Of a DNA stretch of 64,000 nt, positions 43,170-48,173 are shown one piece after another. The DNA lies in contig VGXV01000007.1 in assembly GCA_016873165.1 (NCBI GenBank), positions 1 through 64,000 of the forward strand, read 5' to 3'. This DNA comes from Planctomycetota bacterium. Lineage in GTDB: Bacteria; Planctomycetota; Brocadiia; Brocadiales; Brocadiaceae. The notes under the pieces are model-generated. The model searched no databases, was not told the origin of the DNA, and saw only the letters and a list, made by a program, of their open reading frames with translations. Position 1 is the first letter of the stretch; every line of letters starts with the position of its first letter. A program made the position numbers and the translations under genes.

Positions 43170-43877
43170 CTATCGCCACAAATACTTTGACCGTATAGCC
43201 TTATGTATCCTGTAGTCTAAATCAATGAGTTTTACATTGCAATTGTCATACGAATGATATTTTGTATCTTTTGCCATAAAACAGAGTTCTTTCACCATTT
43301 TGGGATTGCCTCCTGAAAATCTGTATATGTCTTTTTTGAAATCGTCCATACAATTGACGTTAATCTTAAATTCTTTGATAAAATGATCTGCCAGTTTATC
43401 AGTGGATGATTTATCAAGATTAGTCATTTCCACTTTTACAAAATCAAACAAGACCATACGCAAATGATCGATATCTTTTTTCTTTATACCACGGCTTATT
43501 ATTATCAGAGGAATTTTTTTGTCCATTAAATACAGATAGAAAGAATAGTGTTTTGGTTTAACCAATTCTACATGATCAAAAATAACATATTCCGGCGCTA
43601 TCTCATCAAGCATGGTAAAGAATGTTTTTCTCAGCATCGGAATGTTTTTGTTATTTATTTTTTTTGTATCTTTACGATAGAAAAGAATAGGGTTTATCAA
43701 CGATTCCTTCAATGTTCTGCTGCTGTGAGAGTAAAGTAACTTTCCGGACTTCCTCCGGCTTACTAATTCGTGAATAACGGCGCTTTTACCCGTTCCTTCC
43801 TCTCCGTAGACAATGATATTTTTCCTACAGTCCATTGCGTTTTTTATTAACCGGAGTTCCTCTTCTCTGGTAAACAT
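43170..43877 (-). CDS. AAA-type ATPase, last gene of a fluoride-riboswitch operon
   Basis: The 235-aa product has Walker A GEEGTGKSAV (about residue 27), Walker B EYVIFDHVE (about 98), an arginine-bearing sensor-like IIISRGIK and a C-terminal helical part with FSGGNPKMVKELC. This resembles the ATPase core of the STAND/ORC-like archaeal-type ATPases. No effector domain is attached. The ATG at 43877 has GGGGA upstream; a GTG at 43901 would overlap the preceding gene. It closes a run of four - strand genes behind the riboswitch at 45248-45292. Confidence 0.75.
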   Translation of the reverse strand: MFTREEELRLIKNAMDCRKNIIVYGEEGTGKSAVIHELVSRRKSGKLLYSHSSRTLKESLINPILFYRKDTKKINNKNIPMLRKTFFTMLDEIAPEYVIFDHVELVKPKHYSFYLYLMDKKIPLIIISRGIKKKDIDHLRMVLFDFVKVEMTNLDKSSTDKLADHFIKEFKINVNCMDDFKKDIYRFSGGNPKMVKELCFMAKDTKYHSYDNCNVKLIDLDYRIHKAIRSKYLWR

Positions 43878-43893
43878 GTCATTTATTCCCCAT

Positions 43894-44556
43894 TTATACA
43901 CCGTTTTTACCCGCTATTTTTTCGATTGCCAGCAACCACGATTTTTTCTCAGCCTTTGTCTGTTCCCACCGGGAAGACGGATTCATCTTGCGAATAAAGC
44001 CTTCGGCGTCTGATTTAATCCGTGCGATCTGAGTAATTTGTGTATCAAATAAAAATTCCAGTAGCAATTCATCATCACTATAATCCATTAGTCTGATAAA
44101 GTGAGGCATGCAAGCGCCACAGCCGGATACATATTTTGGTTTAATATCATCATCTTCCAAAATGTTCGTCAGTTCCTTAAGATAACCTGCTTCTTTTTGC
44201 TTTAGCTCGTAACACAAAGGACATTTCATGACATTCTCTGCAGATAAAATATTTAAATTATGTTTGTGTTTGACGGAGTTTAACACTGCTATCAATTTTA
44301 CCAGCAAAACAATGCATACATTTGCTGTGCCGTAATGAGAGCTAATTCTTTGGAATTGCCAAAAATGGTAATTACAAAAACCTCCCGCGTTTACAAGGTG
44401 TATCCTTTGTTCCGAATCTCTATATGTCTCGCCGCTTTTCCCTGCCCATCGGCACAAACTGTCAAATTCATCCTGATATAACATTGCGCAGACAGGACAT
44501 CTTTCCGAAGAAAGGGCGCTGATAATTCGCGAATATATTTTGTTTGCTCTATCCAT
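43894..44556 (-). CDS. DUF6062-like cysteine-motif protein
   Basis: The 220-aa product carries four cysteine/histidine pairs spread along a helical protein: CPVC (about residues 20-23), CNYH (about 61-64), CPLC (about 112-115) and CGACMPH (about 145-151). The CPxC-then-CxxH order occurs twice, as if two zinc- or metal-binding units had arisen by duplication. This pattern fits the DUF6062 family of unknown function. Its start overlaps the end of the frameshifted zinc-ribbon/HEAT gene by 8 bases, showing tight coupling. Confidence 0.7.
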   Translation of the reverse strand: MDRANKIYSRIISALSSERCPVCAMLYQDEFDSLCRWAGKSGETYRDSEQRIHLVNAGGFCNYHFWQFQRISSHYGTANVCIVLLVKLIAVLNSVKHKHNLNILSAENVMKCPLCYELKQKEAGYLKELTNILEDDDIKPKYVSGCGACMPHFIRLMDYSDDELLLEFLFDTQITQIARIKSDAEGFIRKMNPSSRWEQTKAEKKSWLLAIEKIAGKNGV

Positions 44557-44934
44557 TTATTTTGATTCTTAATTCTATTAAGTCCTTCGCCCTTCTCTTA
44601 ACAACGCCCATATCTGACTCCATACAACCCATAATAAACTCTTTTGCCTCGGAAACTCCGATTTCATTCAGAGTTTCGAGAATCGCAGTCTTAAGAAAGA
44701 CACTGTCTTTTTTTTAAAGAGTGCAATAAGAGGTTCTACCGCTTTTTCACTTTTTAGCCTGCCGAGGATATTTATTGCCCGCAGAACCGTTTCCGGTTCC
44801 GTATGCCTTAGCGCATTGAGCAATTTTTCCTCGTAATCCATGTTTTCATATTTCACTATATCCGCATTACAGAAAGGGCATATTTTCTCAGCCTCATTTA
44901 TTTCATTCCAGCATTTCGGGCAATAGAATGTCAT
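44549..44934 (-). CDS. Zinc-ribbon/HEAT-repeat protein, requires a -1 frameshift
   Basis: From the ATG at 44934 the product starts MTFYCPKCWNEINEAEKICP (zinc ribbon with two CxxC pairs, CPKC and CPFC) and continues into a HEAT-like repeat (TVLRAINILGRLKSEKAVEP). In the plain frame it stops at 44668 after 88 aa with an unnatural Arg/Leu/Lys-rich end. A -1 shift at the run of eight A (44715-44708 on the - strand) restores a second HEAT-like repeat (DSVFLKTAILETLNEIGVS) to a stop at 44549, overlapping the next gene by 8 bases. The product would be about 128 aa. This is either a programmed shift or a one-base error. The start overlaps the gene before it (ATGA). Confidence 0.7.
44646..44718 (-). 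other. Candidate -1 frameshift site with downstream hairpin
   Basis: In zero frame the - strand reads TTT AAA AAA AAG (44718-44707), which contains the dnaX-type slippery heptamer A AAA AAG. A long imperfect hairpin follows about 26 bases later: CTCGAAACTC (44680-44671) pairs with GAGTTTCCGAG (44658-44648), one bulge. Slipping back one base opens exactly the frame that continues the HEAT repeat. Confidence 0.5.
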
Positions 44935-45194
44935 GTTGTTTTTCTTTGAAGCCTCTGTAATGCCTGGATATATCTTCGCCCAATAACTAAAGCAGCATCA
45001 TGCTTATATCTCTTTGAACACCATGAACATTCAATATAATTATCCGCTGCCCTCAGATTTGGTAAAATGCCGCTTTCTTCTGTACGCATCCCGAGGAGCG
45101 GAGATTGTTTTATGCTTTTAAAACTACTAAAAAAAACCTTACATTCTTTGTCATTGCCACATACCGGACAGATAAAAAAATTGTTTGCCTCCAT
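44931..45194 (-). CDS. Small zinc-ribbon protein, first gene behind a fluoride riboswitch
   Basis: The 87-aa product has CPVCGNDKEC near residue 9 and IECSWCSKRY near residue 54, two CxxC knuckles likely to bind one zinc ion, and a basic C-terminal helix (GRRYIQALQRLQRK). AAGGAGG lies seven bases before the ATG. It is 53 bases downstream of a fluoride aptamer and is followed by three genes with overlaps or short gaps. The role is unknown. Confidence 0.75.
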   Translation of the reverse strand: MEANNFFICPVCGNDKECKVFFSSFKSIKQSPLLGMRTEESGILPNLRAADNYIECSWCSKRYKHDAALVIGRRYIQALQRLQRKTT

Positions 45195-45247
45195 ATTAAA
45201 ACCTCCTTCATTAAATACTATAACAAACTAAACCACTATATATCTAA

Positions 45248-45292
45248 TAGGAGTTATCAGCTCACGATGGCAATAAGGCGAACTCCATCGCC
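45248..45292 (-). promoter_or_regulatory. Fluoride (crcB) riboswitch before the zinc-ribbon/DUF6062/ATPase operon
   Basis: On the - strand the RNA begins GGCGATGGAGTTCGCC and ends GCTGATAACTCCTA, close to the crcB consensus. GGCG (45292-45289) pairs with CGCC as the pseudoknot, GGAGTT with AACTCC (45255-45250) as P1, and a short P3 lies between. No terminator follows. The AACTCCT strand could instead pair with the ribosome site AAGGAGGTT at 45208-45200 (one bulge), which would make this a translational ON switch. The switching model is inference. Confidence 0.9.
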
Positions 45293-45318
45293 TCTTCCTT
45301 CAGAACCACAGCTTAATC

Positions 45319-47121
45319 CTACATCATTACCATATTTATTTGCTCCTGTTTTACGTCAATCAGATTAATGGCATTCCAAATATTTGTCAGTGTCTCTTTG
45401 TGATCTTCCAGTTTCTTAGTCTTGTCTGCCAATAACGCCAGCTCAATCCGTACAGACTCGTCTCCCGCCTTTCGTCTCTCCCTACCCTTTTGAATAGCCT
45501 GTTCTATTTGCTCTGTAAGATCGCTTCCAAGGTCTTTCAATTGTTTCGCATAGTGGTTAATGGTCTTGCAAATCCTTCCTGCAAGGTCTGAGCGTATTCT
45601 GCCGCAGTTTCGGCTTACATCAGAAGACACCCTTTCCATCATCTCGTGAAAAACCATCTTCCTGCTCAGGGATTTCGGCAGGAACGTACGCAGAATGGAC
45701 TTCACTTCTTCTTCGGTAGGCGCCGTATACTCCTGCACCATATAATAAAAACTATTGTCTTTCGTCAGCTCCACGGCAAATTCCGCCTGATCCATAGTTA
45801 CCTCAAAGAGCACCTCAGCAGCCGCTTTAAACTCCTGTATGATATCGTTGGAACGTTTTGTAAAACGGTTAAAAGCCTCCTGAATAGTATTTGAAATCGC
45901 CAGCTCGGAATCTTTTCTGAATACATCGAATCCCCTGACGATCTCCTCTTTGATAGCCTTTTGCATCTCATCCCGAAGAACTGTCGGGCTTAGCCCGAAA
46001 TTTTTCTCATAGAAATCCGTAAGACATTGTTTTATTCTCGGGGTTTCTTTTTCTTCCAAAGCCTTCAGCATATTCTCCACTTTCAGACACAACTTGTCGG
46101 ATTCTCCCTTGAGCAGATACGTAATATCATCTCTGTCCTGTTTCAGGTTTGCAACCAATTTATGAAAGGTGTTTAGTTTCTCCTCTAATTCTTCACTGGA
46201 AGCCTCCAGGGTTCGCTTCTCAATAGCTATCTGAGATAATTTCCGGGAGATAAACCGTTGTGTCCTGGATATTGCTGTATTCAGAACAACCTTCCCTTTT
46301 TCTGAAGAAAGAAAACTCTCCAGCTCATCTGCAAGTTCCAAAAGACCGCTCTGTGAAAACTGAACATCGTTATTCATTATTTTTGCCTTCAGCGCTTCTC
46401 TTGCAGATATAGGCCAGATTTTATGCACGGTAAATCCCATCTCCTCCAATACCTGTTTATTAAACTGAGAAATTTCCTTAATCTCTTCTGCCGTCAGATT
46501 ATCAATTTTATTCAGCACGAAGAATATCTTCTGGGTGGAATCTTTGATGGTATCAAGCAGTTCCTTTTCTGCCTGTGAAATAGGAACATCGGCGCTCATC
46601 AGAAATAATGCGGCATCGAGGTGGTCTAAAAATTCATACGTCGTTTCCGTATTATGCAGAAAGGTTGACCCTACACCCGGAGTATCGACCAGCAACATGC
46701 CCTTTTCAAGAGAAGGAGACGGATATTCAATGAACGCACATCGTACCCCGCGAATATTCCGCGGATTCTCCTTCTCGGTAACATAGCAGGAAAGTTCTTC
46801 CACACTGATTTTCTTTTGACTGCCATCTTCCATAAAGATAGTGCATCTGATTTCTTTGCCAAATTTCAGGATCGTCACGATAGAGGTGAGCGGCACTACC
46901 GATGACGGGAGTATCTCTTTGCCAATGAGGCTGTTGATAAGCGTCGTTTTCCCCCTTTTAAACTGACCCAAAATCACCAAATTGAAGCTGTTCGTTATCA
47001 ATTGCTCTCTGACCATAGCAAGTTGGTTGTTTCCAGCCCCCGCATCGTCTTTTGATAAGGTCTCTGTTTTTTCAATAACACTCAATATTTCTTTTTTATG
47101 TTCCACGAATTTTTCTAACAT
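45319..47121 (-). CDS. Bacterial dynamin-like GTPase, behind a fluoride riboswitch
   Basis: The 600-aa product has a dynamin-type GTPase domain (about residues 45-290): G1 GQFKRGKTT, G2 Thr in VPLTSIVT, G3 DTPGVGS and G4 NKID. Long coiled-coil helices forming the neck and trunk follow (about 290-600). No strong transmembrane segment is seen. Bacterial dynamins bind and remodel or repair membranes; in an anammox cell the anammoxosome membrane is one possible target (inference). The start has GGAGG about 12 bases upstream, a rather long spacing. Two terminators and a fluoride aptamer lie in its leader. Confidence 0.85.
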   Translation of the reverse strand: MLEKFVEHKKEILSVIEKTETLSKDDAGAGNNQLAMVREQLITNSFNLVILGQFKRGKTTLINSLIGKEILPSSVVPLTSIVTILKFGKEIRCTIFMEDGSQKKISVEELSCYVTEKENPRNIRGVRCAFIEYPSPSLEKGMLLVDTPGVGSTFLHNTETTYEFLDHLDAALFLMSADVPISQAEKELLDTIKDSTQKIFFVLNKIDNLTAEEIKEISQFNKQVLEEMGFTVHKIWPISAREALKAKIMNNDVQFSQSGLLELADELESFLSSEKGKVVLNTAISRTQRFISRKLSQIAIEKRTLEASSEELEEKLNTFHKLVANLKQDRDDITYLLKGESDKLCLKVENMLKALEEKETPRIKQCLTDFYEKNFGLSPTVLRDEMQKAIKEEIVRGFDVFRKDSELAISNTIQEAFNRFTKRSNDIIQEFKAAAEVLFEVTMDQAEFAVELTKDNSFYYMVQEYTAPTEEEVKSILRTFLPKSLSRKMVFHEMMERVSSDVSRNCGRIRSDLAGRICKTINHYAKQLKDLGSDLTEQIEQAIQKGRERRKAGDESVRIELALLADKTKKLEDHKETLTNIWNAINLIDVKQEQINMVMM

Positions 47122-47185
47122 GAAACTTCAAATCCTCCATAAAATAAATGGATATGCTCATCTCCCTGATGGAAAAACATAACAG

Positions 47186-47225
47186 AAAAACCCCTGCCAA
47201 CACTATTTGTTTGACAGGGGTTTTT
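47186..47225 (-). terminator. Second tandem terminator in the dynamin leader
   Basis: On the - strand 47225-47211 pairs with 47200-47186 over 15 positions, including one G/U wobble that is valid only for the - strand RNA, and ends in five U. Sequence and layout copy the terminator 10 bases upstream, so the two probably arose by duplication. Confidence 0.85.
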
Positions 47226-47231
47226 CAAAAT

Positions 47232-47269
47232 AAAAAAACTCCTGCCAAACGAAATCTTTGACAGGAGTT
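47232..47269 (-). terminator. Riboswitch-controlled terminator in the dynamin leader
   Basis: On the - strand AACTCCTGTCAAA (47269-47257) pairs with TTTGGCAGGAGTT (47249-47237) and seven U follow in total. Its first six bases are also the 3' strand of aptamer helix P1, so fluoride-bound aptamer and terminator exclude each other, the classic ON-switch design. Confidence 0.9.
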
Positions 47270-47307
47270 ATTAGCCACAATAGCAGCGATTAAGCGAACT
47301 CCATCGC
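47262..47307 (-). promoter_or_regulatory. Fluoride (crcB) riboswitch before the dynamin-like gene
   Basis: On the - strand the RNA starts GCGATGGAGTTCGC and ends GGCTAATAACTCCTG. GCG/CGC forms the pseudoknot, GGAGTT/AACTCC forms P1, and GCTGC/GTGGC forms P3. The order and conserved bases match the crcB class. It overlaps the terminator at 47232-47269. The rest of 47308-47533 holds no gene. Confidence 0.9.
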
Positions 47308-47533
47308 ATACACTTTTATTTCAGCAATCGAGAATCGAGGGTAATGATACTCACTCTTTCATCTGTTGTCAAACACATTTTTTTCCCTTTTTCATACCGA
47401 GTTGCCTTTTACCCCATTATTATAAGTTTCCCTGAATCACGTATCTATTTTTTATCAGAATACAACCTCTGACACTCAAAAAAGTAGGAATTGTGTATGC
47501 TATTTAATCCGTAAAATATAATCCATTACTTCT

Positions 47534-47890
47534 TCAAGTAATATTGCCTAATTCTGGTATTACAGATTGAACTATTTCGCCCGATGAGACGTGCTTATGA
47601 GAATTGAAGTTTAACCGTGGTGTATGGTCAGCATTGTCGTATCTGAATATTAGCTTTCCATCTATTTGTTGAAAATGAAAAGAATAAGTAAGTTTTTCGA
47701 TCTTATATCTGACGTCGAGATATTCTGTAAAAAATAATTTTGAATCGTCAATAAATGTTATGACACCTTTTGTTACCCCAATTTTTTCAGTCCTGCTGTC
47801 AATGTGTAAATCTGTATCAATTATTAAATTGGTTTTGGAATATTCCTCTATACCCTTTACAAGGTTGGCGAAATATTCAGTGAGCAACAT
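47534..47890 (-). CDS. TumE-type toxin (DUF6516-like)
   Basis: The 118-aa product has the pattern of the TumE toxin family: an N-terminal helix, then FIDDSKLFFTEYLDVRYKIEKLTYSFHFQ and FRYDNADHTPRLNFNSHKHV, with conserved Tyr, Asp, His and Arg. TumE proteins are predicted RNA-targeting toxins neutralised by the TumA antitoxin encoded just upstream. It overlaps that gene by 14 bases, standard for type II pairs. The molecular target is not established from sequence. Confidence 0.75.
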   Translation of the reverse strand: MLLTEYFANLVKGIEEYSKTNLIIDTDLHIDSRTEKIGVTKGVITFIDDSKLFFTEYLDVRYKIEKLTYSFHFQQIDGKLIFRYDNADHTPRLNFNSHKHVSSGEIVQSVIPELGNIT

Positions 47891-48173
47891 ACTCTATTTC
47901 TTTGAGTTTTCTCAGGTCTTCCATTACCTTTTCCCTTATCTTTAATTCGCCTGCCCATTCTATATATTCCCGGTCGCCTTTTTTCAGGTCTTCGGCGGAA
48001 AATTCCTTCTGAAATACTTCTGATGATACATCATACTCAGTTTCAAATTTTTCAATTTGCATGTTTGTTTTACTCAAGCCGATCTCGAGTCTTTTGATTT
48101 CAGCAGAAATTGCCGCCCGAATAATGTCAACAACTCCATCCTCTTTGTCAGATTGAATTTGTAATTTTATCAT
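47877..48173 (-). CDS. TumA-type antitoxin
   Basis: The 98-aa product is mostly helical and charged, with IRAAISAEIKRLEIGLSKTN forming a coiled-coil arm and EYIEWAGELKIREKVMEDLR at the C-terminus, a motif set seen in antitoxins paired with TumE. AAGGAGG lies seven bases before the ATG. It lies 47 bases after the smc stop. No separate DNA-binding domain is obvious. Confidence 0.7.
   Translation of the reverse strand: MIKLQIQSDKEDGVVDIIRAAISAEIKRLEIGLSKTNMQIEKFETEYDVSSEVFQKEFSAEDLKKGDREYIEWAGELKIREKVMEDLRKLKEIEYVAH

Follow-up and report, generated by a model that had tools for sequence, protein, structure and literature searches.

We found that two fluoride riboswitch aptamers, a dynamin-like GTPase and a set of four further genes lie in series on the minus strand of a 64,000-nt stretch of DNA, hereafter the window, from an anammox planctomycete (genus Candidatus Kuenenia). 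We consider this locus to be probably a doubly fluoride-gated operon for membrane upkeep under HF/F− stress. The aptamers, the gene families, their association across phyla and the lack of known exporters were established computationally. The operon would be induced by fluoride through two serial sensors on one transcript. The original prediction of an undescribed fluoride-stress module is upheld, but its core turned out to be the dynamin, which had been overlooked.

A dynamin gene between two fluoride aptamers

On the minus strand the locus runs from a promoter-like site through aptamer 1, terminators T1 and T2, the dynamin gene, a 17-nt gap and aptamer 2 to the four-gene set:

47344..47372, minus strand: promoter-like site TTGACA-17-TATCAT, 11 of 12 consensus matches, the best of the region, 27 nt before aptamer 1
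47255..47317, minus strand: fluoride aptamer 1 (RF01734, 30.0 bits, full length, E 3.7e-6 genome-wide)
47237..47269, minus strand: terminator T1, 13-bp stem and T run, with a 5′ arm that uses the pseudoknot ACUCC of aptamer 1
47209..47250, minus strand: predicted antiterminator, T1 3′ arm (47250-47239) with T2 5′ arm (47220-47209)
47185..47221, minus strand: tandem terminator T2, conserved stem and T run
45319..47121, minus strand: dynamin-like GTPase, 600 aa (Pfam Dynamin_N, 6.6e-27)
45241..45301, minus strand: fluoride aptamer 2 (RF01734, 38.0 bits; gathering score 34)
45202..45253, minus strand: predicted translational platform, aptamer 2 CUCCU with the Shine-Dalgarno (SD) AAGGAGG (45208-45202)
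44931..45194, minus strand: ZnR87, zinc-ribbon protein of 87 aa with two C-x2-C pairs
44558..44934, minus strand: ZnHEAT, zinc ribbon and HEAT repeats, 128 aa if an A8 frameshift is read through (assembled ORF 44934-44668)
43894..44556, minus strand: DUF6062 protein, 220 aa (PF19538, 1.4e-14, 54.5 bits; cut-off 27)
43170..43901, minus strand: AAA/STAND-like ATPase, 243 aa (PF01637 ATPase_2, 2e-10)

The scan with the RF01734 covariance model bore out the near-consensus crcB aptamer that had been claimed before the four genes (E values of 5.8e-7 in the window and 8.9e-9 in the whole genome). The claimed stretch, 45200-45292, holds most of aptamer 2 and the SD leader, whereas the aptamer proper spans 45301-45241 and ends 46 nt, rather than 53 bases, upstream of the ZnR87 ATG at 45194. 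The score of aptamer 1 is just under the Rfam cut-off of 34; its orthologues in the same genus reached 32.9 and 34.2 bits (the latter in G020), and the orthologous dynamin gene is preceded by aptamers across the Brocadiaceae. The two aptamers were the only RF01734 matches above chance in the 4.05 Mb genome, the next best having an E value of 0.72.

Were the aptamers relics or chance matches, the genes would have nothing to do with fluoride. The sub-threshold score of aptamer 1 would fit this, as would the relics of this kind that Scalindua holds. We consider it very improbable, given the genome-wide E values of both aptamers and their recurrence at 48 of the 58 distant dynamin loci described below. 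Furthermore, an alignment of 48 aptamers contains the P1/P2 variants GGCG/CGCC, AGCG/CGCT and GGTG/CACC with compensatory changes, and its columns for the GATGG loop and the CTCC pseudoknot strand (GAUGG and CUCC in the RNA) are invariant or nearly so.

The locus differs from exporter-type fluoride operons in that neither CrcB/Fluc nor CLC-F is encoded. Two fluoride switches without a visible crcB had been claimed, and this was confirmed: searches of the whole genome, whose completeness is estimated at 100%, found neither CrcB (PF02537) nor CLC (PF00654), and CrcB was found in 0 of 33 Brocadiaceae genomes. Between the SMC gene and aptamer 1, the window also carries two small ORFs of unknown family (47534-48173), which are absent from the neighbouring genomes compared.

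The dynamin is the core and most conserved part of the fluoride association. Its profile matches the bacterial dynamin BDLP (2j68) at 1.3e-47, and its predicted model (pLDDT 80.7) has the fold of BDLP and IniA in the PDB. The helical stalk is present, and the core residues of the motifs GQFKRGKTT, DTPGVGS and NKID are invariant or nearly so over 36 aligned rows. An orthologue (E < 1e-100) was found in exactly those 23 of the 33 Brocadiaceae genomes that carry fluoride aptamers, the other 10 having neither, in a set of genomes that are related and not independent.

Pairing of dynamins with aptamers across phyla

Dynamin loci were picked by protein similarity alone, with the RNA disregarded (80 loci), and a covariance model trained on the 48 Brocadiia aptamers was then run upstream of the dynamins. 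An aptamer was found within 1 kb upstream, mostly at 25-250 nt, for 48 of 58 distant dynamins (31-39% identity). At four further distant loci an aptamer heads the same-strand gene run that holds the dynamin, and six were without one; one dynamin locus was too short to judge. Because the Brocadiia model was built from the near set, 30 of the 48 loci were rechecked with Rfam's own model, and 28 scored above its cut-off. The carriers belong to the Planctomycetota, Nitrospirota, Thermodesulfobacteriota, Bacillota, Atribacterota, Aquificota, Deferribacterota, Actinomycetota and Calditrichota and include a Gottesmanbacterium, about ten phyla by database labels, which may err for metagenome-assembled genomes (MAGs). 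CrcB is present in 18 of 50 distant dynamin genomes; therefore, the module cannot be seen as a mere replacement for the exporter.

The distant aptamer operons also contain a CPA2 Na+/H+ antiporter (15 loci), a universal stress protein (13), an MFS protein (8), enolase (5), DUF6062 (4), ZnHEAT (4), pyrophosphatase (3), a HAD protein (3) and the ATPase (2). A family of 139-155 aa without a Pfam match occurs at six distant loci. The review PMC11139923 lists antiporters, pyrophosphatase, HAD, enolase and formate hydrogen lyase as riboswitch-associated, and the antiporter, universal stress protein, enolase, pyrophosphatase and HAD neighbours match the fluoride-response lists of this review and of PMC5533749. 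Dynamin, DUF6062 and ZnHEAT were not found among the riboswitch-associated genes in excerpts of the review. The main text of Weinberg 2010 (PMC2864571) names mutS, K+/Cl− transport and formate hydrogen lyase, but not dynamin.

Several further arrangements were seen in these genomes. Members of the 139-155 aa family come from several phyla (L094:679, L135:3742, L139:10208, L168:8251 and L062:11022). Stalk-only dynamins of about 275 aa, with no GTPase domain, stand behind their own aptamers at L062:10080-10907, L061:7286-8113, L052:7572-8405 and L046:5336-6283. Some Brocadia have a second aptamer operon with a formate/nitrite transporter pair (L059:10738-13387, with a P-II protein, and L054:11810-13650), which ties nitrogen genes to fluoride control. 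In Thermoanaerobacterium saccharolyticum (L127:4821-7977), an aptamer is followed by two large ORFs of 511 and 498 aa, similar to ORFs in L113, and then by the dynamin.

Fluoride-metal phosphate mimics (AlFx/MgFx) inhibit many GTPases, and the dynamin and its partners could be overproduced as their victims, like enolase and pyrophosphatase, and not form a dedicated defence. Both enzymes do share these operons, and the review PMC11139923 gives such logic for both. However, they are housekeeping enzymes, whereas the dynamin is missing from the 10 aptamer-free genomes among the 33 of the family and so is no housekeeping target. In addition, the host genome carries a second dynamin paralogue (G000:C21) that has no aptamer, and we regard overproduction of a victim as unlikely.

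An equally unlikely explanation is export or sequestration, in which the MFS protein, the formate/nitrite transporter pair and the CPA2 antiporter would export and the dynamin and zinc proteins would assemble or regulate them. The MFS and antiporter counts, the transporter pair that several Brocadiaceae carry in their second operon and the lack of both known exporters in the host genome speak for it, but the window operon contains no membrane transporter and the formate/nitrite transporter genes are missing from most loci.

A general membrane-damage or anti-phage defence, with fluoride as one of several inducers, seems less likely still. PADLOC matched the dynamin to LeoA (3.3e-14) and LeoBC (1.1e-8) and the ATPase is STAND-like, but the neighbours are fluoride-response rather than defence genes and the other four proteins have no defence-system match. 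Membership in the Leo/dynamin anti-phage systems was rejected, there being only this distant similarity of one protein and no match to a partner gene. The preferred reading is that the dynamin belongs to a membrane response to fluoride.

The four genes behind aptamer 2

ZnR87 was seen only in Brocadiaceae, where its homologues are 47-58% identical. ZnHEAT matches HEAT_2 at 3.3e-10 when its two frames are joined across the A8 run (window 44710-44717), at which relatives have A7 and then CT; the second frame was recovered independently at 44561-44728. Because the downstream frame is intact, the frameshift is likelier to be a sequencing error or a site of slippage than a sign of decay. In 12 of the 13 genomes of the class that carry ZnHEAT, a fluoride aptamer lies no more than about 6 kb away. 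Farther away, it follows the dynamin in a nitrospirotal locus (L126) and stands behind an aptamer in Thermoanaerobacterium (L127, Bacillota) and in a deltaproteobacterial MAG (L094).

The DUF6062 protein has the metal-site motifs CPxC and GFCxxH with invariant Cys/His, and its model matched no PDB fold below E 0.8. We know of no function or solved fold for this family. It is the first gene after an aptamer in L086 (Bacillota), L101 (Atribacterota) and L213 and likewise in G447, whereas in L167 one short ORF separates the two. Only 4 of 392 planctomycete genomes contain DUF6062, and two of them (G105 and G147) have no aptamer nearby; thus, DUF6062 is not fluoride-specific. The ATPase stands directly behind its own aptamer in L135. 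As the original prediction implied, genes of this set occur elsewhere mostly with a link to fluoride RNAs, as ZnHEAT and the ATPase do, but DUF6062 is not exclusive to them.

The genus-mate G019 has the order aptamer, dynamin, aptamer, stalk-only dynamin, 139-aa protein, aptamer, ZnR87, ZnHEAT, DUF6062 and ATPase. The window locus looks like this order with its middle part lost.

Predicted switching, proposed function and comparison with known systems

The region scanned had no promoter-like site directly before aptamer 2 comparable to that before aptamer 1, from which we infer a single transcript; both aptamers and the downstream genes are likely to share it. The expression platform of aptamer 1 is tied to the 3′ strand of the aptamer, as T1 takes its ACUCC. 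T1 is conserved, with 98% of cells paired in an alignment of 33 sequences and compensatory changes present, and so is T2, with 90% of cells paired and seven pairs changed on both sides. An independent T2 would always block transcription, and therefore some release of T2 is needed. In every tandem copy we found complementarity between the 3′ arm of T1 and the 5′ arm of T2, with energies of −13 to −23 kcal/mol and, for the window, of −21.4 kcal/mol. In this predicted antiterminator 89% of cells are paired, or about 97% if one constant A-C mismatch is set aside. Four of its pairs changed on both sides and 6 of 500 shuffles scored as high, the covariation coming largely from one clade change (Kuenenia type versus the rest).

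Weak Rfam matches at this leader (ncr1175, mir-3938 and a plastid UTR) fall below cut-off, sit on the terminator hairpins and were set aside as spurious. Just upstream of the dynamin in three Scalindua loci (L077, L080 and L173), T1 is kept and the 5′ half of the aptamer is lost, whereas in G055 the aptamer is whole; an intact aptamer is absent from most Scalindua dynamins.

At aptamer 2, a search of the leader up to ZnR87 found no terminator, as had been claimed. The pairing with the ribosome site that had also been proposed is predicted: in the folding model the SD core of ZnR87 is paired at 0.99-1.0 when the ACUCC is free and at 0.01-0.06 when it is held. The leader fold beats 197 of 200 dinucleotide shuffles (z −2.83). 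However, sequestration of the SD by CUCCU did not exceed that obtained with shuffled spacers, of which 25%, 17% and 7% did as well in three species, because the CUCC of the aptamer is anti-SD-like by nature, and an extended anti-SD helix was not significant in the shuffle test. The translational step predicted at aptamer 2 is thus weaker than the step at aptamer 1.

Structure and covariation lead us to predict fluoride switching at both aptamers. At low fluoride, T1 would capture the ACUCC of aptamer 1 and terminate transcription, with T2 as a second lock. With fluoride and Mg bound, the pseudoknot would hold the ACUCC and T1 would fail; the freed T1 3′ arm would then pair with the T2 5′ arm so that, like dominoes, both terminators fail and the dynamin is transcribed. 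Farther along the same RNA, aptamer 2 would gate translation: its CUCCU would otherwise mask the ribosome site of ZnR87, and fluoride would unmask it so that the four-protein set is produced.

We are confident that the module is linked to fluoride in its regulation. BDLP/IniA-type proteins are known to act at membranes. The dynamin may accordingly be a membrane GTPase of this type, with the zinc-site and HEAT proteins and the ATPase as its partners. Maintenance of the membrane under fluoride stress, with DUF6062, ZnHEAT and the ATPase as partners, is a tentative proposal that draws on the likeness to BDLP and IniA, the membrane role of such proteins and the biology of HF permeation (PMC11139923). 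Since the genome lacks CrcB and CLC, membrane maintenance or remodelling may replace or supplement export. A broader proposal has in our estimate a little under an even chance: that this clade of dynamins, which about ten phyla keep under fluoride riboswitches, serves as a membrane machine dedicated to fluoride stress, with its own zinc-ribbon/HEAT, DUF6062 and ATPase partners and, in anammox bacteria, control by domino-type tandem terminators.

Current explanations of fluoride resistance invoke exporters, pH homeostasis and the overproduction of enzymes that are inhibited (PMC11139923). Riboswitch-bound dynamins across about ten phyla suggest that to the cell fluoride is a problem of the membrane as well. 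If this is true, there would be a fluoride defence besides those three, and bacterial dynamins would gain a defined chemical signal. To our knowledge, the natural inducers of these proteins are mostly unknown. There are cultured carriers, among them Desulfotruncus alcoholivorax and Thermoanaerobacterium saccharolyticum, which makes the proposal immediately testable, and in anammox reactors the genes are likely to matter for fluoride-bearing wastewater.

The aptamer itself is already known. Its use before a dynamin and partners, and the tandem-terminator platform, were not found described in the literature searched, which yielded no link between fluoride riboswitches and dynamins but did not extend to the original 2012 fluoride gene list. 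One match for fluoride, crcB and dynamin was an unrelated cancer paper.

With the crcB motif RF01734 (PMC2864571) the locus shares the aptamer sequence, the two stems and pseudoknot strands, the position in a 5′ leader and a terminator overlapping the 3′ strand of the aptamer. It differs in having two to three aptamer copies per locus, terminators arranged in tandem and bridged by a predicted antiterminator, and, on the presumed single transcript, a putatively translational copy that lacks a terminator, with no exporter controlled. The Enterobacter cloacae FRM fluoride-resistance operon, ppaC-uspA-eno-gpmA-crcB (PMC5533749), is likewise a riboswitch-led multigene response, and its universal stress protein, enolase and pyrophosphatase recur in distant dynamin loci; the window locus, in contrast, has no crcB and encodes the dynamin, zinc-ribbon/HEAT, DUF6062 and ATPase proteins instead. 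The DUF6062 protein is over the Pfam cut-off for PF19538 and has the same Cys/His pattern. The best sequence and fold matches of the dynamin, BDLP (2j68/2j69) and mycobacterial IniA (6j72), share its GTPase domain and helical stalk at about 17% identity over the fold match, whereas the dynamin described here is riboswitch-controlled and has stalk-only companions in some genomes.
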